Shown here: positions 7,599 to 52,655 of the stretch, one piece after another | Numbering within the stretch: position 1 is the stretch's first letter | Layout: every line of letters starts with the position of its first letter | Assembly (NCBI GenBank): GCA_017557185.1 | Contig: JAFZAP010000099.1 | Span: 1-52,807 of the forward strand | Source: Prevotella sp. | GTDB lineage: Bacteria > Bacteroidota > Bacteroidia > Bacteroidales > Bacteroidaceae | Length of the DNA stretch: 52,807 nt | Direction of reading: 5' to 3' | Program-made: the position numbers and the translations under genes | Notes under the pieces: generated by a model | Database searches by the model: none | What the model was told of the DNA's origin: nothing | What the model saw: the letters and a program-made list of their open reading frames with translations, nothing else

Positions 7599-7740
7599 CC
7601 TCACCCCGACCCTCTCCAAAGGAGAGGGAGCAGGGAAAAAGAACGAGGGGACATTGAGGGAGAAAGAACGAAGGAGCAATGCCAGAAACGTGGTTCCCCT
7701 CAGGCATCACCCCCAGCCCCTCTCCGAAAGGCGAGGGTAG
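7596..7740. repeat. Two further REP-like palindromes
   Basis: Copies at 7596-7632 (CCCTCTCCAAAGGAGAGGG) and 7703-7740 (CCCCTCTCCGAAAGGCGAGG) flank a purine-rich stretch with AGAACGAGG and AGAACGAAGG words. They belong to the same family as the copies found inside genes. Another copy lies at 7455-7490. Confidence 0.8.
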
Positions 7741-7765
7741 CTTAAGGGATCGGGGGAGGCCGCTA

Positions 7766-7919
7766 AATCCTATGCTTTCAGACCTCAGGAGCATTACTTT
7801 GAGACATGTGGAGCATTGCTTACGAACAACTGGAGCATTGCTTTCGGACAACTGGAGCTATGCTCTAGGACCTCAGGAGCAATGCTCTAGGGTTCTGAAA
7901 CCATTGTTCTTCCATGCTG
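7766..7919. repeat. 22-nt-period dyad array A
   Basis: Seven consecutive units of exactly 22 nt run without gaps. Each starts with a 13-nt core such as GGAGC-ATT-GCTTT, GGAGC-TAT-GCTCT or GGAGC-AAT-GCTCT, whose arms can pair, followed by a 9-nt variable linker. The first and last units are degenerate. A T-rich flank beginning CTCGTTGCGG (7939) follows. The region 7740-8100 holds no credible gene. Related arrays lie at 37002-37199 and 49494-49800. The function is unknown. Confidence 0.85.
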
Positions 7920-8125
7920 AAAAGCATGTGATGAAGGTCTCGTTGCGGTGTTTTTCGCACTTTTTGAACTTGAAACTTGGCGCTATAAACTTTTTGCTGT
8001 ATCTTTAACCTTCGGTTTTAGATACTTACGCTCGAGAAAATAATAAAGGGAGCTATATACAATTAGACCCTCCGAACTTTTTAGACAAACGAAACAGACG
8101 GACAGATGTTATTTACCCACAGATT

Positions 8126-8456
8126 CCAAAATAAGACATAGAGACAAAGAGAGATTTCTAAGGAACGTAGGAATGGGGGAAACGCGCTCGGCTGTGCCCG
8201 ATTGCGTAGTAAATCGGAGGAAGAATGATGCGGAAGTAATTTGGATCATGGAGGGAGATTCCGCGCGCGGAATCATAACGTTTGACAGGTTCGGCACCGA
8301 CAAACTCGTTTGTCGTGCAGACCCTATCGAACGTATGACGATGGTGAGAAACACCATCTCCTCCATTATCCAATTACTTCCGTCTCATTCTTTCTCCGAC
8401 TCTATGTCTCTTTGTCTAAATTCCTTGATTCCTTCATTCCTTAGAATCATCTAAGA
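8126..8456. repeat. Long imperfect inverted repeat upstream of the zeta-like gene
   Basis: The inner arm 8216-8263 (core GCGGAAGTAATTTGG) pairs with 8350-8402 (core CCAATTACTTCCGTC) over about 46 bp with few mismatches. Outer segments AGACATAGAGACAAAGAG (8133-8150) and TTCTAAGGAAC (8156) recur inverted near 8402-8453 but in swapped order. The centre holds the perfect palindrome GATTCCGCGCGCGGAATC (about 8259-8276) and the hairpin CGACAAAC-T-CGTTTGTCG (about 8300). It could be a structured RNA or a palindromic mobile remnant. No coding potential is visible. Confidence 0.7.
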
Positions 8457-9633: not shown

Positions 9634-12600
9634 ATGAAACAGAGAATTATTACTACTTTGACAGTTCTCCTGATGACGGTCATAGGAGTTCAGGCCGGTG
9701 TGATTAAAATTGCCGGAACTTCAATCAGCACCACGGGTCAAGTCGATTTGTCCGCTGTCACGAATGGCAGTGTGTACTACGATGCCGAATCGAACACGCT
9801 CACCCTCAACAATGCCACCATCAATGCGGGCAACAGTGAAGCCATCTGGTTTTACACGAATAACGTGAATTTTACGCTGGTAATTATCGGAACGAATTCG
9901 GTGACAGGAAGTGAAGGGTTGAGACTAAACGTAAACAATGTCACTATCCAGCTCAGTAATAACCAAAGCGGTAGTGTGACCTTTGCAGGCTCAAGTGGCG
10001 ACTGCGGCATTTTTGTGCCAAGCAACTCAACGCTCACCATCAATCAGGGGTGCTCAGTAACGGCACAGGGCAAATGGGGCATTGCAGGTAATAATGGCAC
10101 GAGTGGCGAGACCGTCGTCATCAACAGCGCCACCGTCCACGCCACAGGCTCAGGCGGTTCCATCTGCGACCTGCAGTCGTTCACGATGAACGGCTGTGAA
10201 ATCACCTCCCCTGCAGGAGCTGCATTTAATTCATCAGAGCATGCTGTCTGCGTAGGAACAACCAAGGTCACCAGCGAAGTAGTCATCGAGCCTACTCACG
10301 ATGGAATCCCCATCGATGCAGAGCATTTCCCCAACGCCACCTTCCGTAACTATATCAGCTCAACCAGCGCGAACTACGACCGCGACGGCGACGGCTACCT
10401 GAGCGACGATGAGATATCGATGGTGACTTGGATGAATGTCGCAAGCAAGAGCATCAGCGACCTCACGGGCATCGAATACTTCACGTCGATGACGACCCTC
10501 TACTGTCATAACAACCCCCTCGGAACGCTCGACCTGTCGGGCTGCACGGCACTCAGGTCGCTCCAGTGCAACGGCTGTCAGCTCACCTCACTCCTCGTTC
10601 CGCAGAGCATCACCAGCATCCAGTGTTACAACAACCGCATCGGCTTTGCTGCCATGAATGCCCTCATCGAGAGCCTGCCCAACGTGAGCACCGGTGTCTT
10701 CATGGTGATGCTTGCCAGCGGCACAGATCAGAACGTCTGCACACAAGGACATGTGGCGGCAGCACAGGCCAAGGGGTGGAACGTCTACAACAGCAATTCC
10801 CAGGCCTACTCAGGTGTCGACATCGCCATCAACGGCACCAACTTCCCCGATGCCAACTTCCGCAGTTACATCAGTGATAACTTAGACACCGATCACAACG
10901 GAGAACTGAGCCAGGCTGAAATTGCTGCGGTGACAGTCATCGACGTCCCGACAATGGGCATCAACGACCTCAAGGGCATCGAGTTCTTCTCCAATCTGGA
11001 AGAACTGCACTGCTACAATGGAGATACAGCATCCGACAACGACAACCACATCACCTCGCTCGACCTTTCGGACAACCTCAGGCTAAAGCGTTTGGCGTGT
11101 GGACAGAACGGGACGCTCACAAGCCTCAATCTCTCAAAGAACACGTTGCTTGAGAATTTGCATTGCGCCAATAACTCACTCACCACCCTCAATGTGTCGA
11201 ACTGCCCGAACCTGTGGAGATTGGTATGTTATAACAACCAGCTGACGACTATTGACGTGTCGAACAACACGGCACTGAGGTATTTTTACTGCCAAGGCAA
11301 CCAGCTGACCTCGCTAAATGTATCGAACAACATGGCACTGATGGAGCTCTATTGCTACAGCAACCAGCTGACCTCGTTGAATGTCTCGAGCAACACAGCA
11401 CTAAAACTACTCTATTGCTACGAAAACCAGCTGACCTCGTTGAATGTATCGAATTGCACGGAACTGAGGGAACTCAATTGCTACAGCAACCAGCTGACCT
11501 CGCTGGATGTATCGAACAATACTGCACTGAAGTATTTATGGTGCTACAACAACCAACTGACTTCGTTGAATGTGTCGAACAACACGGCACTAACAATTCT
11601 CTATTGCAACAGCAACCAGCTGACCTCACTGGATGTATCGAATTGTACTGCGCTGGTGACTTTCTCATGCCACTACAATCAATTGACCTCGCTGGATGTA
11701 TCGGATTGCACGGCACTAAAGACTTTCTATTGCTACGGCAACCTGTTGACTACTCTAAATGTATCGGGCTGTACGGCAATGACGACGCTCTCCTGCTTTA
11801 GCAACCAGTTGACTACTCTAAATGTGTCGGGTTGTACGGCAATGACAGTACTCGGTTGCTCCAACAATCAACTGACCTCTCTGGATGTTAGTGGCTGTAC
11901 GGCACTGACAGAGCTCTATTGCTACTTTAACCAGCTAACCTCTCTGAATGTTTGTGGCTGTACGGCACTGACAGCACTCGATTGCTCCCACAATCAACTG
12001 ACCTCGCTGAATGTATCGGGCTGCATGGAATTGACGGAACTCTATTGCTCCGACAATCAGCTGACTTCGCTCGATGTATCGGACTGTTCGGCACTGACAA
12101 CTCTAAAGTGTTATAACAATCAGATATATGGCGACGCAATGACCAATCTGGTGGTAAGCCTCCCGACGGTGAGCAGCGGACGTTTCATTGTTGTTTCCCC
12201 CACTGACGCTAACGAAAAGAGCGTCATCACCAAAGCCGATGCCTATATCGCCACCAGTAAGGGCTGGACAGTAATGACTCCCTATGGCGGCGACCCGTTT
12301 GCAGAGGGCATCGCCATCAACGAGACCAACTTCCCTGATGCCACCTTCCGCAGTTTCGTGCAGTCGAACTACGACAAGGATCGAAATGCCATCCTGTCAG
12401 AGACTGAGATAGCTGCCGTAGAGGAAATGGTTGTGGAGGGAAAAGGTATCGCCGACCTGACAGGCATCAAGTACTTCACGGCTTTGAAAGGCCTTTATTG
12501 CTCCTACAACCAGCTGACCTCGCTGGATGTATCGAACAACATGGCACTGACAATTCTCTATTGCAGCTACAATCAGCTGACCTCGCTGAATGTATCGAAC

Positions 12601-13221
12601 AACACGGCACTGACATATCTCTATTGCTACAGCAACCAGATCAAGCGTGAGGCAATGGAAGCAATCGTCAGAAGTCTGCCCACGATAAATGATGGTAAAG
12701 GATATTTCTATGTCTACTGGGAAGGTGTAAATGACGGCAACGAGTGTACTGAGAAACATGTATTCGGACTAGAGATGAAGAACTGGCAAGCCCGTTACTA
12801 CGACGAGACCGAACAGGATTGGCTTCCCTATGCCGGCATCAGCGAATCCTCGGGCGGTGCTAATGGCGACATCAACGGCGACAACAAAGTAGACATCGCC
12901 GACGTCACAGCACTTGTCGATATCGTTCTCACAAACGGCAATGGGTCATCAGCAAAAGCGCTCACACCACAAAAGAGTGAGCAGCAAGGGCTGAAGGCAC
13001 CAGCTCCTGATATGCCGCAAACGAAGAAGAACACCGCAAAGGCTCAGCGGGACACGGATGCCCTCCCGTCATTAAAGAATGTGGCGAGGGAGAGGAATGT
13101 GACGTCCGACAGGAAGTCGGCACCCGCAATGGACGGAAAGCTGACGAAACAGCCCATGATGCCCGACATGAAGTTGAAGCCACAAACCCCGAAACATCCT
13201 GAAACCTACGAAGTGATGTAA
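9634..13221 (+). CDS. Secreted leucine-rich-repeat protein with EF-hand-like and dockerin-like segments
   Basis: The 1195-residue protein starts with signal peptide MKQRIITTLTVLLMTVIGVQA, so ATG 9634 is preferred over 9580. About residues 22-220 form an Asn/Thr-rich beta region. Then come EF-hand-like loops (DRDGDGYLSDDE, DTDHNGELSQAE, DKDRNAILSETE) that each open an LRR block. The main block (about 11100-12125) has some sixteen 21-residue LRRs of the form LTSLDVSNCTALTxLYCYxNQ, each with a Cys on the inner strand; a short second block follows near 12480-12640. GDINGDNKVDIADVTALVDI near residue 1090 is a dockerin-like calcium repeat. The last 90 residues are Lys/Pro-rich and not a T9SS tail. 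The role is probably surface binding or adhesion; the ligand is unknown. Confidence 0.85.
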   Translation: MKQRIITTLTVLLMTVIGVQAGVIKIAGTSISTTGQVDLSAVTNGSVYYDAESNTLTLNNATINAGNSEAIWFYTNNVNFTLVIIGTNSVTGSEGLRLNVNNVTIQLSNNQSGSVTFAGSSGDCGIFVPSNSTLTINQGCSVTAQGKWGIAGNNGTSGETVVINSATVHATGSGGSICDLQSFTMNGCEITSPAGAAFNSSEHAVCVGTTKVTSEVVIEPTHDGIPIDAEHFPNATFRNYISSTSANYDRDGDGYLSDDEISMVTWMNVASKSISDLTGIEYFTSMTTLYCHNNPLGTLDLSGCTALRSLQCNGCQLTSLLVPQSITSIQCYNNRIGFAAMNALIESLPNVSTGVFMVMLASGTDQNVCTQGHVAAAQAKGWNVYNSNSQAYSGVDIAINGTNFPDANFRSYISDNLDTDHNGELSQAEIAAVTVIDVPTMGINDLKGIEFFSNLEELHCYNGDTASDNDNHITSLDLSDNLRLKRLACGQNGTLTSLNLSKNTLLENLHCANNSLTTLNVSNCPNLWRLVCYNNQLTTIDVSNNTALRYFYCQGNQLTSLNVSNNMALMELYCYSNQLTSLNVSSNTALKLLYCYENQLTSLNVSNCTELRELNCYSNQLTSLDVSNNTALKYLWCYNNQLTSLNVSNNTALTILYCNSNQLTSLDVSNCTALVTFSCHYNQLTSLDVSDCTALKTFYCYGNLLTTLNVSGCTAMTTLSCFSNQLTTLNVSGCTAMTVLGCSNNQLTSLDVSGCTALTELYCYFNQLTSLNVCGCTALTALDCSHNQLTSLNVSGCMELTELYCSDNQLTSLDVSDCSALTTLKCYNNQIYGDAMTNLVVSLPTVSSGRFIVVSPTDANEKSVITKADAYIATSKGWTVMTPYGGDPFAEGIAINETNFPDATFRSFVQSNYDKDRNAILSETEIAAVEEMVVEGKGIADLTGIKYFTALKGLYCSYNQLTSLDVSNNMALTILYCSYNQLTSLNVSNNTALTYLYCYSNQIKREAMEAIVRSLPTINDGKGYFYVYWEGVNDGNECTEKHVFGLEMKNWQARYYDETEQDWLPYAGISESSGGANGDINGDNKVDIADVTALVDIVLTNGNGSSAKALTPQKSEQQGLKAPAPDMPQTKKNTAKAQRDTDALPSLKNVARERNVTSDRKSAPAMDGKLTKQPMMPDMKLKPQTPKHPETYEVM

Positions 13222-36898: not shown

Positions 36899-37001
36899 CA
36901 ACGATATTTTTGTCAGAAAACCTTATAGCATGGGTGGTTTGGTTATTATTGTTTCCAAACATTCATGTTGTCCTTAGGAACACCCGTCTTTCCATCAAGG
37001 A

Positions 37002-37199
37002 AAAGCATAGTTTTCGGAGTGTTAGGACAATGCTTTCAGACCGCTGTAGCAATGCTTTCGGACCGCTGTAGCAATGCTTTCGGACTGCCAGAGCAATGCT
37101 TTCGGAGTGCTAGAGCAATGCTTTCGGCGTCTAAGAACAATGCCTTTGGCGTCCAAGAGGAATGTCTTTGAGGTCCAAGTGCAATGTTCTTGTTGAAAC
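37002..37199. repeat. 22-nt-period dyad array B
   Basis: Nine gapless 22-nt units fill the middle of the 578-bp gap between the PAP2 gene and malQ. Cores include AAAGC-ATA-GTTTT, AGAGC-AAT-GCTTT (twice) and GTAGC-AAT-GCTTT (twice), followed by 9-nt linkers. Units 7 and 8 are degenerate. The flank CCCGTTGTTTTTTTGCGG resembles the flank of array A. A short open frame across it is only repeat translation. Confidence 0.85.
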
Positions 37200-37335
37200 C
37201 CCGTTGTTTTTTTGCGGTATTCTGTCAATATCTTTAACTTTTATGACGATTCCCTTTTCGGGTTAGAGGCATGAAAGCTATCAAATAATTCTTTACATTT
37301 TCTCTTTCCTAATTTGTCTTGTTTTGGATATTTTA

Positions 37336-47483: not shown

Positions 47484-47521
47484 AAAACTTTTCACTTTTC
47501 ACTTTTCACTTTACACTTTTT
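47484..47521. repeat. TTTTCAC microsatellite
   Basis: About four to five copies of the 8-mer CTTTTCAC lie in the divergent region between the ABC ATPase and helicase genes, about 55-90 bp upstream of the helicase -33 box. Confidence 0.8.
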
Positions 47522-47574: not shown

Positions 47575-47605
47575 TTGGCTTTTCGCTCTCTTATTCGTAC
47601 CTTTG
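47575..47605 (+). promoter_or_regulatory. Bacteroidota-type promoter, helicase gene
   Basis: TTG (47575-47577) and TACCTTTG (47598-47605), followed by the ATG after only eight bases. Confidence 0.8.
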
Positions 47606-47613
47606 CACACGTT

Positions 47614-49509
47614 ATGCCACAGACAACGCCCATATTGGAGTTGCAGCGGCAGCGCATGCTGCTCGAAATAGAGTACTTCACCGAAAAAGAAGCCTATCGC
47701 AAGTTCACCGAGAACCGCGGTCTGGCACGCTCGGTGAAGCGGGGCGACACGTGGTTTCCGCTGCGTGTGGGCAAGAGCTACTACAACTCGCTGAACCAGC
47801 TGTGCATCGAAGTTTTCCGCACCACCGATCAGGATATCGAGCACAACTTCGAGTTCGGAAGGCCGGTGCAGTTCTTTAAACAACCCACCCCTAACCCCTC
47901 CTACTACAATTTCACCGCCACCGTTTCCTATGTCGATGGCGACAGAATGGTTGTTGCCGTGCCTGACACCGCACCCATCATCGAGTTGCAGAACACTGAC
48001 CAACAGCTAGGCGTGCAGCTCTCCTTCGACGAGACCAGCTATCGCACCATGTTCGATGCCCTCGACCGTGTGATGCGAGCGAAGAACAACCGACTAGCCG
48101 AGTTGCGTGATTTGTTTTATAAGCCCACCCCCAGTCAATTTTATACCTTTTCCCCACTCTCCTTCCCTTGGCTCAACCCAACCCAGGAAAATGCTGTGAA
48201 TATGGTGTTGCGGGCGAAGGATGTAGCCATCGTGCACGGCCCTCCCGGTACAGGCAAGACCACCACACTCGTCGAGGCCATCTTCGAAACGCTACACCGC
48301 GAGCCGCAGGTGCTCGTGTGTGCACAAAGCAACATGGCTGTCGACTGGATCAGCGAACGTCTTGTCGATCGCGGCGTGAACGTGCTGCGCATCGGCAATC
48401 CCACACGCGTCAACGACAAGATGTTGTCGTTCACTTACGAGCGGCGCTTCGAGGCCCATCCCGATTACGAACTGTTGTGGTCCATCCGCAAGGCCATCCG
48501 CGAACTGCGCCAGCATCGCAAGCGCGGTTCCGAGAACTGGCACCAGAAGATGGACCGCCTGAAGAGCCGTGCGGCAGAACTGGAGATACGCATCAACGCC
48601 GAGCTCTTCGGAGAAGCGCGCGTCATCGCCTGCACCCTTGTGGGCTCAGCCAATCGTCTGCTAGAAGGACAGAAGTACAACACGCTGTTCATCGATGAGG
48701 CTGCACAGGCGCTTGAGGCAGCCAGCTGGATTCCCATCCGCCGTGTTCGCCGCGTGATTTTGGCTGGCGACCACTGTCAGCTGCCGCCTACGGTGAAGAG
48801 CCTTGCAGCCCTGAAGGCGGGGTTGGGGAAAACACTCATGGAGCGCCTCGTCGAGAACCACCCCGAGGCAGTCACCCTGCTCGGCGTGCAGTATCGCATG
48901 AACGAGGAGATCATGCGCTTCTCCTCCGACTGGTTCTACGGAGGTAAGGTGCAGAGTGCTCCGCAAATCAAGCATCGCAGCATTCTCGACTACGACATCC
49001 CGATGGAATGGATAGAAACGGATGTCGACGGCGAAGAGTTTGTCGGCGAGTCTTTCGGACGCATCAACAAAAAGGAAGCCGAGCAGACACTCGACATACT
49101 GAAAAAGTATTTCACGAAGATTGGTAAGGCCCGCATCCTCGAGGAGCGCATCGACGTCGGCGTCATCTCGCCCTACCGCGCACAAGTGCAATACTTGCGG
49201 CACCTCGTCAGGCGCGACGGGTTCTTCAAACCCTACCGCAGCCTTATCTCCATCAACACCGTCGACGGCTTCCAAGGACAGGAGCGCGACGTCATCCTCA
49301 TCTCCCTTGTGCGCTCCAACGACGACGGCCAGATAGGCTTCCTGCGCGACCTGCGCCGCATGAATGTCGCCATCACCCGTGCCCGCATGAAGCTCATCAT
49401 TCTTGGCAATCCCGACACAATGACTCGCCACCCCTTCTATCGCAAGCTCTACGAATACGTCGAGGCGCTGCGCGAAGCCTCTGCTGACACCGAAGAGCAA
49501 CGCTCTTAA
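47614..49509 (+). CDS. UPF1/IGHMBP2-like superfamily 1 helicase
   Basis: The 631-residue helicase has an N-terminal SMBP2-like beta-barrel region (FRTTDQDIEHNFEFGRPVQFF), Walker A GPPGTGKTT, motif II FIDEAAQALEA (DEAA), motif III AGDHCQLPPTV, motif V SINTVDGFQGQERDV and motif VI VAITRARMKLI. SF1B helicases of this type unwind nucleic acid 5'-3'; bacterial members may act in RNA metabolism or DNA repair. The 13-codon upstream extension (47575) is rejected because the promoter overlaps it. PTPNPSYYNF (near 47882) looks like a half-copy of the REP-like repeat. The last five codons and the stop lie inside unit 1 of dyad array C. Confidence 0.9.
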   Translation: MPQTTPILELQRQRMLLEIEYFTEKEAYRKFTENRGLARSVKRGDTWFPLRVGKSYYNSLNQLCIEVFRTTDQDIEHNFEFGRPVQFFKQPTPNPSYYNFTATVSYVDGDRMVVAVPDTAPIIELQNTDQQLGVQLSFDETSYRTMFDALDRVMRAKNNRLAELRDLFYKPTPSQFYTFSPLSFPWLNPTQENAVNMVLRAKDVAIVHGPPGTGKTTTLVEAIFETLHREPQVLVCAQSNMAVDWISERLVDRGVNVLRIGNPTRVNDKMLSFTYERRFEAHPDYELLWSIRKAIRELRQHRKRGSENWHQKMDRLKSRAAELEIRINAELFGEARVIACTLVGSANRLLEGQKYNTLFIDEAAQALEAASWIPIRRVRRVILAGDHCQLPPTVKSLAALKAGLGKTLMERLVENHPEAVTLLGVQYRMNEEIMRFSSDWFYGGKVQSAPQIKHRSILDYDIPMEWIETDVDGEEFVGESFGRINKKEAEQTLDILKKYFTKIGKARILEERIDVGVISPYRAQVQYLRHLVRRDGFFKPYRSLISINTVDGFQGQERDVILISLVRSNDDGQIGFLRDLRRMNVAITRARMKLIILGNPDTMTRHPFYRKLYEYVEALREASADTEEQRS

Positions 49510-49800
49510 CTTTCTAGAGCATCGTTCTTGTGTAGAAAGAACATCGTTCTAAAGATCGCGGAGTATTGCCCTAATATTGTAAATCAACTTATTTTAATCA
49601 GTAAATTAACTTATTTTAATCAGTAAATTAACTTAATTTGATGAGTAAAATAACTTAATTTACTGAATAAATTAACTTAATTTACCGCACAAATTAACTT
49701 AATTTACTTTACTACCTCGTTGCTCTTGTCGCACTAGGTCATTGAGACAGGCAAACGAGATGATTGCTTTTGACAAACGAAAAGATTGCTAACTTAATGC
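49494..49800. repeat. 22-nt-period dyad array C between convergent genes
   Basis: Fourteen units (one of 21 nt, the rest 22) run from inside the helicase end to just past the SDR stop codon. Units 1-4 carry AGAGC-AAC-GCTCT, AGAGC-ATC-GTTCT, AGAAC-ATC-GTTCT and GGAGT-ATT-GCCCT. Units 5-10 switch, in the same phase, to AATTA-ACT-TAATT-type cores. Units 11-14 are looser ATTGCT-bearing units. Several cores are perfect dyads despite different sequence. It occupies the whole 284-bp intergenic space; there is no gene and no ordinary terminator. Confidence 0.88.
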
Positions 49801-50630
49801 GTAGCCTTTAGATATTGTAAGTCACCGTACCAATAGCTGGCAGTGCAGCCGCCATCGATGAGCAGGTCGGCACCGCTGATGAAACGGCCACGGGACGACA
49901 TCAGGAACTCTGCCAGATCTCCCACTTCGTCAGGAGTCCCTGCACGACGGGCGGGCATGCCCCCAATCATCTTCAGATAGCCGTCCTTGCGAGGGCCATG
50001 CAACTCGTCGTTGGCTAGCGGGGTGATGATGATGCCAGGACTGATGCTGTTGATGGTAGCACCGCGACGTCCCCAACGGGTAGCCTCGTACATCACTCTC
50101 AAAACATTGCAGCGCTTCGAATACTGATAGGCCTTCAGCGTATCATCGATGGCCTTAAGAAACGGAAGTTCCAACAGTTCTTCTACTGGTGTCATCGCCA
50201 GTGCATCATTCTGCTCCTGCGGTAAGGCAGGCAGACGATGCCCGCTCTGCGACGAGATAATCACACCTGAGCCTCCCTCGGCAATCACCTTGCCGAACTC
50301 CTCCAACAGCACACTCGTGCCATAGAGATCCACACGCAGAATCTCCTCAACGGGAGCCTGCGAGGGTGACACGCCAGCGGCATTCACCACATTCGTCACC
50401 TCGCCCTTGCTGGTGGCAAACTCCACCAACTTCAGGATGTCCTCCTTCGAGCCAAGGTCGCATTTGATGGTTGAGCATTCAAAACCTGCATCCTCCAGTG
50501 TCTTCGCTGCCCGCTCTGCGTTTTCTACACTATAGTCAGCCAACACCACATGCTTGCCTGCCGACACTCGGCGGATGATAGCCTGGCCAATACTGCCAGC
50601 ACCTACCAATACTGATACCTGTTTAGCCAT
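49794..50630 (-). CDS. Short-chain dehydrogenase/reductase
   Basis: This 278-residue NAD(P)-dependent oxidoreductase has Rossmann motif VLVGAGSIGQAI, NAAGVSPSQAP (NAG-like motif), catalytic Ser in VIISSQSGHRLP and YQYSKRC (Tyr-X3-Lys), and a PG motif in SISPGIIITPLAN. The substrate is unknown. It overlaps the aldo/keto reductase gene by 8 bp and is the last gene of a reverse redox operon. Its stop codon lies in the last unit of dyad array C. Confidence 0.88.
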   Translation of the reverse strand: MAKQVSVLVGAGSIGQAIIRRVSAGKHVVLADYSVENAERAAKTLEDAGFECSTIKCDLGSKEDILKLVEFATSKGEVTNVVNAAGVSPSQAPVEEILRVDLYGTSVLLEEFGKVIAEGGSGVIISSQSGHRLPALPQEQNDALAMTPVEELLELPFLKAIDDTLKAYQYSKRCNVLRVMYEATRWGRRGATINSISPGIIITPLANDELHGPRKDGYLKMIGGMPARRAGTPDEVGDLAEFLMSSRGRFISGADLLIDGGCTASYWYGDLQYLKATH

Positions 50631-51471: not shown

Positions 51472-51491
51472 GACAATTTACTATTTACAAT

Positions 51492-52655
51492 TTACAGACT
51501 TGCCAAGAGTATCTCCTTGATGTCCTGCTCTGTCAGGGGTGCGTAGGCATTCTCCAGACCTTCGTTGACGGCGATGTGATGAGCCATCTCGTCGATGCGG
51601 CTGTCGTCGATGCCCACCTCACGCAGGTGCATGGGGATGTTGATGCTCTCGAAGAAACGGTAGGTGGCGTCGATGGCACGTTCGGCAATCTCCTGCTGGG
51701 GCAGCGAGGCGTCGATACCGAAGACGTTGATGCCGTACTTCACGAAGCGGGGCAGTGTGCGCTCGTTGAGAATGTGGCGCATCCAGCGAGGGGTGATGAT
51801 TGCAAGACCTTCGCCGTGGGTGATGTCGTAGTAGGCAGAGAGGGCATGCTCGATGCCGTGGCAGGGCCAACCTGACTGGCTGTTGCCAAGAGCGAGGATG
51901 CCGTTGCAACCGTAGGTGCAGGCAAGCATCATCTCGGCACGGGCGGTATAGTCCTCGGGATTCTCCAGGCACTTGCGCCCGTTCTCCATCAGGCTGCGCA
52001 GCATCGACTCGCAGAAGCCGTCGTTGAGCAGCGTGGCGTCGGCCACGAAGTATTGTTCCATCGTGTGGTTCATCGCGTCGGCAATGCCTGCAGCGGTCTG
52101 CTTCTTCGACACGGTGAAGGTATAGACGGGGTCGAGAATCGATACTGCAGGGAACAGATGGGGGTCAAGATAACCGATCTTGTCGTTGGTCTCTGTGCGC
52201 GAGATAACACCTCCGCAGTCGTATTCTGAGCCTGTAGCGGCAAGGGTCATGATATCGACGATGGGCAGGGCAGCCTGCGCTTTTACCTTATAGGAAATCA
52301 AGTCCCAGGGGTCGCCGTCGTAACAAGCTCCGGCAGCAATGGCCTTCGAGCAGTCGAGCACGCTGCCGCCACCCACAGCCAGGATGACATCGATGTGGTG
52401 TTCCTTGCAGAGGCGCACGCCATCGAGCACCGAGGGGTCGTACTTGGGATTAGGCTGGATGCCAGAGAGTTCCACGATATCGTAGCCCTTTAGCAGTTCC
52501 TTCACGCGGTCGTAGAGACCTATTTTTTTGATACTGCCACCACCATAGGTGAGGAGGATTCTCTTTCCAAACTGCGCCATGACGCTGGGCAGCTTCACAA
52601 TCGACTCCTTGCCAAAAATGAGGCGAGTCGGGGTCATGTAATCAAAGTTCTGCAT
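51492..52655 (-). CDS. Iron-containing alcohol dehydrogenase (BDH/YqhD type)
   Basis: The 387-residue group III dehydrogenase begins MQNFDYMTPTRLIFGKES. It has nucleotide-binding LAVGGGSVLDCSKAIA and metal ligands in ADAMNHTMEQYF, CHGIEHALSAYYDITHGEGLAI and a preceding Asp. Members reduce aldehydes such as butanal or methylglyoxal-type compounds with NAD(P)H. With the adjacent flavodoxin end, AKR and SDR genes it forms a reductive, possibly aldehyde-detoxifying, operon (inference). Confidence 0.9.
   Translation of the reverse strand: MQNFDYMTPTRLIFGKESIVKLPSVMAQFGKRILLTYGGGSIKKIGLYDRVKELLKGYDIVELSGIQPNPKYDPSVLDGVRLCKEHHIDVILAVGGGSVLDCSKAIAAGACYDGDPWDLISYKVKAQAALPIVDIMTLAATGSEYDCGGVISRTETNDKIGYLDPHLFPAVSILDPVYTFTVSKKQTAAGIADAMNHTMEQYFVADATLLNDGFCESMLRSLMENGRKCLENPEDYTARAEMMLACTYGCNGILALGNSQSGWPCHGIEHALSAYYDITHGEGLAIITPRWMRHILNERTLPRFVKYGINVFGIDASLPQQEIAERAIDATYRFFESINIPMHLREVGIDDSRIDEMAHHIAVNEGLENAYAPLTEQDIKEILLASL

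Follow-up and report, generated by a model that had tools for sequence, protein, structure and literature searches.

A 22-nt dyad array between two convergent Prevotella genes belongs to a family of about a hundred intergenic arrays and may be a protein-binding platform

Introduction

Why should the gap between two convergent genes be filled with tandem palindromes that change their sequence class without losing their register? Such an array separates a helicase gene from an SDR gene in the window, by which we mean the whole stretch of 52,807 nt of Prevotella sp. DNA that was analysed here. A preliminary description had counted 14 units of 22 nt and had proposed that selection acts on a spaced dyad, not on sequence, with the array serving as a DNA-binding platform, a bidirectional terminator or a processed RNA.

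Results

Structure of the array and its surroundings

Each unit of the composite array consists of a 13-nt core and a 9-nt linker (Table 1). Units 1-4 have the cores AGAGCAACGCTCT, AGAGCATCGTTCT, AGAACATCGTTCT and GGAGTATTGCCCT, units 5-10 carry the AT-type core AATTAACTTAATT and variants of it, and in units 11-14 the cores are again GC-type or hybrid and weaken outwards, a point absent from the preliminary description. The identity at lag 22 over 49494-49801 was 0.633, compared to at most 0.381 at the other lags between 5 and 43. In 500 dinucleotide shuffles, the best identity over lags 10-44 reached 0.396. The autocorrelation check that had been suggested thus confirmed the 14 units and the in-phase switch of class, the register being unbroken throughout.

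The stop codon of the helicase gene lies at 49507-49509, so that unit 1 covers its last codons, and unit 14 overlaps the SDR stop at 49794. These positions bear out that the array fills the convergent gap and overlaps both gene ends. As had also been noted, no normal terminator was seen: a simple pattern scan of 49400-49900 for a GC-rich stem followed by a T run found 0 sites (shuffles gave 0.4). The transcript of the array is predicted to fold well (z −4.83), and no Rfam family matched in the window at the gathering score.

The preliminary description does not mention that the window contains two further lag-22 arrays, near 7712-7964 and 36940-37261. The window also has short arrays of 7-nt units at 47487-47520 and 51473-51496, as have loci L228 and L225, and long 63-nt tandem repeats at 11260-12627, which probably, as a guess, belong to a leucine-rich-type repeat protein.

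Table 1. Positions of the arrays and flanking genes in the window
Feature	Positions	Strand	Description
Second window array	7712..7964	.	GC-type only; lag 22
Third window array	36940..37261	.	GC-type only; codirectional gap; lag 22
IGHMBP2-family helicase gene (TIGR00376)	47575..49509	+	3' end enters unit 1
Composite array	49494..49801	.	14 units of 22 nt in a single register; lag-22 identity 0.633
Units 1-4	49494..49581	.	GC-type dyads; family consensus RRAGCAWTGCTYY
Units 5-10	49582..49713	.	Six AT-type dyads; consensus GTAAATTAACTTAATTTAC
Units 11-14	49714..49801	.	Hybrid/degenerate GC-type units; unit 14 overlaps SDR stop
SDR-family oxidoreductase gene (NF005395)	49794..50630	-	3' end within unit 14

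A family of arrays in the same genome

The window's own genome comprises 3.35 Mb in 116 contigs. Here, a pattern for GC-type dimers gave 279 matches and a pattern for AT-type dimers 313, compared to 0 for the reversed control of the former and 0 for the control of the latter. In addition, sequence-only models were built from both classes; with 150 of 913 GC and 150 of 533 AT candidates scored, they gave at least 211 GC and at least 121 AT matches. After merging the model matches with those of the GC pattern, we obtained at least 107 array places on at least 56 contigs, at least 39 of them with an AT block; weak arrays are absent from this count. The window array is therefore one among about a hundred such intergenic arrays and is not unique.

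Four of the AT places (L134, L138, L139 and L141) are contig ends with one common sequence, probably two loci that were each cut in two. Contigs C16, C18, C33, C38, C51 and C69 start or end in or near AT blocks. Since contig ends of this genome fall at AT blocks, the assembly breaks at these repeats.

Composite arrays and the six-unit AT block

Of the 36 composites that we examined, 29, among them that of the window, have an AT block of exactly six units; of the other seven, two are truncated at a contig end. GC-type units adjoin the block in phase in most of the composites that were seen. With this recurring number of units and in-phase flanks, the switch of class in the window is a stereotyped, recurrent design and not a local oddity. 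The unit beside an AT block (e.g. 49714-49726) is often a hybrid, with a GC-type outer arm and GACCT, GAGGT or GAGAT as the inner one, and such junction units look as if 11-bp half-sites were exchangeable.

As judged by eye, composites at separate loci have their unit order and linkers in common, which indicates descent by copying, and part of the family therefore spread as a block. By the same inspection, subfamilies are visible, the likeness declines outwards, the linkers on the left resemble those on the right in inverted form, and composites appear inverted overall. No common ends were seen in the stacked composite copies. We also considered that the AT block was inserted into a GC dyad with a 3-bp duplication. 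The lengths would fit this, but the centre triplets at the AT/GC junctions were equal in 13 of 32 cases compared to 13.8 expected, that is, at chance level, and this idea was rejected.

The core is kept while the linker varies

For the GC class, consensus and information content come from 58 arrays of the own genome with 320 units in total. Positions of the 13-nt core carried 0.48-1.35 bits, and those of the linker mostly 0.02-0.08 bits, the exceptions being C at −8 and G at +8, placed symmetrically about the centre. In the AT class, and in the relative with a complete genome (G016), the conserved dyad extends over about 21 bp of the 22-bp unit.

The arms of the GC class do not covary (z from 0.5 to −2.7). 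Mispairs of the G.T type are about as frequent as those of the A.C type, e.g. 85 versus 68. In G016, two arm pairs were weakly positive (z 2.4 and 2.9) and the remaining pairs null or negative; in the AT class, where the set may hold both strands of some arrays, one pair was weakly positive (2.5) and the rest null or negative. As the units had been selected for resembling the core, covariation was less likely to be seen, and the test is weakened. Given arms that do not covary and similar counts of both mispairs, a double-stranded protein site fits better than an RNA hairpin. RNA hairpins were rejected on the missing arm covariation, although the whole transcript folds well.

In 38 GC arrays, linker identity was 0.58 between adjacent units of one array and 0.32 between arrays. 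Fifteen pairs of GC arrays had a linker identity of at least 0.7 compared to 4.8 expected, and three reached at least 0.8 compared to 0.2 expected; all three are flanks of AT composites. The linker sequences thus suggest that arrays mostly grow by local duplication, while something acting in trans would hold the common core across loci. The AT composites are in part an exception to local growth, as their copies have linkers and unit order in common.

For the preliminary description, this means that selection on a spaced dyad is supported, as the dyad is kept within a class while the linker varies. Its view that this selection is not on sequence does not agree with a core sequence that is kept over dozens of loci of the own genome with arms that do not covary. 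Slippage, which had been named as a possible full explanation of the likeness between units, accounts for part of the likeness within arrays, as seen in the linkers, but leaves the common core unexplained.

Gene context of the arrays

Both neighbouring genes were called for 45 arrays, of which 21 are in codirectional gaps, 15 in convergent and 9 in divergent ones; five more arrays are at contig edges. Convergent gaps were mildly over-represented (15/45 arrays versus 12/74 gaps, P 0.042). With 30 of the 45 arrays outside convergent gaps and all orientations found, a bidirectional terminator as the general role was rejected. By crude ORF calling, no called ORF runs across the middle of 41 of 43 arrays, and the other two lie within ORF calls of 70 and 81 aa; array edges are overlapped by some neighbouring ORF calls, as with the helicase and SDR genes. 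Among 26 small neighbouring ORFs, no particular gene that accompanies the arrays was evident.

Spacing along the chromosome

The 51 within-contig gaps between listed arrays had a mean of 22.4 kb and a coefficient of variation (CV) of 0.39, with none below 5 kb and two below 10 kb. For the 35 gaps on 32 contigs of known length, the CV was 0.37 compared to 0.88 ± 0.12 for random placements, none of which (0/5000) was as low. When all lag-22 arrays on C42, C7 and the window, which were read contiguously, were taken together, the 15 gaps had a CV of 0.36 and a minimum of 11.4 kb; 0 of 10000 random placements into intergenic gaps reached so low a CV. The listed arrays of the own genome are thus spaced far more evenly than by chance, at about one per 22 kb.

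In G016, we counted 80 loci in the first 1.86 Mb, with two clusters 0.7 kb apart taken as one locus. None of the 79 gaps was below 4 kb, compared to 11.4 expected. This genome has short-range exclusion only and no overall regularity, with a CV of 1.24 for the 79 gaps and of 0.85 without a gap of 222 kb. That stretch (G016:C1, about 1281-1503 kb) has no listed match, compared to one per about 23 kb elsewhere; the terminus or a large insertion are candidate readings. A strand polarity of the arrays along G016 was considered and rejected, as places on the reverse strand are also present and skew samples and the position of dnaA give no clear picture of the replichores.

Arrays in relatives

Around the same helicase gene, 80 Prevotellaceae loci were taken. 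Lag 22 was the most frequent period (12/80); lag 21, of the 7-nt series, occurred in 8 of the 80, and lags 20 and 23 were absent. Samples of other stretches of at most 20 kb from Prevotella-type genomes, in total 1.28 Mb, gave 32 arrays at lag 22, again the commonest period; lags 14, 21 and 23 had 14, 12 and 3 arrays, respectively. Some of these genomes had been chosen for an array at the helicase locus, while the stretches sampled lay elsewhere; L223, L237 and L240, from genomes already sampled, and L218-L222, of ~1.3 kb, were omitted. Twenty other families of the order, sampled over 273 kb, yielded no lag-22 array, and neither did 100 kb of S. buccae or 84 kb of G062.

Of the Prevotella-type genomes sampled in depth, most have 22-nt arrays that are built on other dyads: ATCTGACGCAGAT in G016, YTGTACGTTACAA and AAATATACTATTT in G060, and TTTTTGGTAAAAC in P. 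veroralis. A lack of 22-nt phasing in relatives would have spoken against the preliminary description; instead, the pitch is kept with other sequences. Among 46 lag-22 arrays in relatives, an odd-centred dyad was found at p<0.05 in 15 and an even-centred one in 9. The Fisher value for odd-centred enrichment over the 46 arrays (1.7e-11) is overstated, as arrays of the same genome are related (seven are from G016). Of 19 arrays each at lags 21 and 14, none and three, respectively, had an odd-centred dyad. Arrays of 9-nt multiples often show dyads too (lag 18: 6/8), and dyads are therefore not confined to the 22-nt class.

At L066, L071, L038 and L085, arrays with lags 9, 18, 27 and 36 have odd-centred dyads about as strong as those of 22-nt arrays. 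The 7-nt series (lags 14, 21, 28, 35 and 42) is the next commonest tandem class in relatives. In G053, from another family of the order, 23-nt-period arrays at 8236-8321 and 9607-9782 of L256 have a common sequence, and a sister geometry of 23 nt may exist in that family.

The relative with the most similar helicase (80% identical) is RUG12665 (G070), in which a 22-nt array of AATTGACTTGATT-type units directly follows this gene, while the next gene differs. It has a composite of its own at L347. The AT pattern had 27 matches in G070 and 0 for the control, and none in six other relatives. Of the three G070 array loci L347, L350 and L351, one, L350, has within about 1.1 kb a counterpart of a gene that flanks an array of the own genome (96.8% over 125 aa), and another gene at L350 gives a 44% match to a gene near a different own-genome array. 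The array behind the helicase gene and these gene matches are only suggestive of orthologous array sites in the two genomes. The GC-type dimer pattern matched in 9 of 60 genomes of relatives, more than once only in G014 (17) and G012 (6); its reversed control gave a single match in 4 of the 60.

Discussion

Comparison with known systems

To our knowledge, no chromosome-marking or nucleoid-occlusion site system has been described in these bacteria, and our literature search on such systems found none for Bacteroidetes. Noc, SlmA and MatP are dimeric proteins with palindromic sites dispersed along the chromosome; in matS (13 bp), the arms likewise follow a 5-3-5 layout. Those sites are single and their sequence is kept in related species. 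The dyads described here are likewise dispersed palindromes, but they form tandem arrays, their core changes from species to species and their protein is putative. In plasmid centromere iterons (ParR and TubR type), tandem sites at helical pitch let dimers line up at one locus beside their own par genes; the arrays resemble these in pitch and differ in occupying about a hundred chromosomal places. The repeats do not fit a CRISPR array: its near-identical repeats and unrelated spacers are not seen here, where cores vary from unit to unit and adjacent linkers are alike.

No paper on such 22-nt arrays in Prevotella was found, and the accessible parts of PMC5771137 and PMC4060949 hold nothing on point. 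The nearest published element that we found is the BrickBuilt MITE of Porphyromonas gingivalis. According to the accessible text of Klein et al. 2015 (PMC4596501), it has a 23-nt unit without spacer, 19 copies in ATCC 33277, a leader and tail whose terminal inverted repeats resemble those of IS5-family elements, predicted long stem-loops and some locations that are kept in P. gulae; the same text describes 22-, 23- and 41-nt tandem repeats in P. gingivalis W83. As far as that text goes, the arrays share with BrickBuilt the occurrence in Bacteroidales, the intergenic and dispersed position, a tandem unit of about two helical turns and the prediction of long stem-loops. On the same basis, they differ in the 22-nt unit, the variable linker, about a hundred places, the lack of any defined ends seen in the stacked copies, dyads that change between species and a regular spacing.

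REP, BIME and REPIN elements are intergenic, high-copy palindromes that are sometimes found in arrays, and in these respects the Prevotella arrays are alike. REP palindromes occur with RAYT transposases. According to PMC3733652 they are 20-40 bp long; PMC3116915 is another source on these elements. Instead of 20-40-nt palindromes with a GTAG-type tag, we found dyads of 13-21 bp that are tiled at a 22-bp pitch, and Y1 transposase matches are missing in 8 of 13 array-bearing relatives. The own genome has three Y1 matches, two of them above the cut-off. One 176-aa Y1-family transposase gene (G000:C7 68692-69222; L131 193-723) lies about 1.1 kb from a composite array. The two are separated by another gene, which we take to be tRNA methyltransferase-like, and with the Y1 family missing in those 8 of 13 relatives, a RAYT/REP system was set aside as improbable.

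Which explanation fits the arrays?

Our preferred reading, to which we give a probability of roughly 0.55, is that the array belongs to a set of about a hundred intergenic platforms to which a putative sequence-specific dimeric DNA-binding protein would bind. Its strongest competitor is a mobile element that has target immunity: the arrays, or at least the GC-AT6-GC composites, would be MITE-like and copied between genes, and the immunity would explain the spacing. The shared unit order and linkers of composites at unlinked loci, their subfamilies and outward decay, and the inverted look of left and right linkers, all judged by eye, are what such copying would leave behind, and the exclusion at short distance in the own genome and in G016 would follow as well; BrickBuilt, described in the accessible text as a MITE with a 23-nt tandem repeat (PMC4596501), is a precedent. 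However, neither common ends nor junction duplications were seen, linkers are not in common for most GC arrays, and Y1 transposases, the only class considered, are present in 4 of 7 genomes without a helicase-side array and missing in 8 of 13 with one. We regard this origin as unlikely.

That the arrays are functionless minisatellites, made by replication slippage that favours 22-nt steps in this lineage, appears improbable to us. Adjacent linkers are indeed alike within an array, many unrelated sequences adopt the same period, and the dyads in arrays of 9-nt multiples suggest that a dyad may simply accompany tandem growth. Slippage does not, though, produce the same core at dozens of loci whose linkers are mostly unrelated, and it leaves the six AT units of most composites and the regular spacing unexplained, as well as the odd-centred dyads in 15 of 46 arrays at lag 22 compared to 0 of 19 at lag 21. 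An element acting at the RNA level, either a hairpin array or a bidirectional terminator of two convergent genes, would suit the window locus, with its convergent gap, its lack of an ordinary terminator in a simple scan and its well-folding transcript, as well as the mild enrichment of convergent gaps. This is, in our opinion, very improbable: two thirds of the arrays (30/45) are in non-convergent gaps, the arms do not covary, and tandem palindromes that are folded together give good folding as a by-product.

A platform for dimeric proteins, the option of the preliminary description that fits best, is what the two-turn pitch, the symmetric site, the freer linkers, the core held in trans, the indifference to gene orientation and the even spacing together point to. 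The pitch, the dyad, the contrast between core and freer linker, the lack of covariation, the occurrence in all orientations, the spacing and the change of core between species are observations, from which we infer the putative binding protein, its filament and a chromosomal function. Several results speak against this reading: AT composites, and a few pairs of GC arrays, have linkers in common, G016 lacks an overall regularity, a significant dyad is present in only a minority of the lag-22 arrays of relatives and also in arrays of 9-nt multiples, and the samples of S. buccae and G062 gave no lag-22 array. Each dimer would occupy one 22-bp unit, about two helical turns, and adjacent dimers would line up along one DNA face, probably touching. 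Touching dimers at one per unit would hold the pitch to 22 bp and leave the bases between sites free to drift. The six AT-type sites in the centre would be bound either by a second protein, possibly a paralogue, or by the same protein in a different mode. The role of the platforms would be in chromosome organisation (nucleoid domain anchoring, or marking for segregation or division) and not in gene-by-gene regulation.

More tentatively, and at less than even odds, the arrays may belong to a lineage-wide organising system of Prevotella-type bacteria. Such a system would have about one platform per 22 kb, a strict two-turn pitch and a side-by-side filament; its recognition sequence would turn over between species while the geometry stays fixed, and in about one platform of three, a second class of six AT dyads would sit in phase within the array. 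With a fixed pitch and a site that can be read, the hundred or so evenly spread platforms provide a direct bait for the putative protein. If true, this would be one of the rare instances in which a whole-chromosome protein-DNA code is rewritten between species, with a fast-changing site and a fixed geometry.
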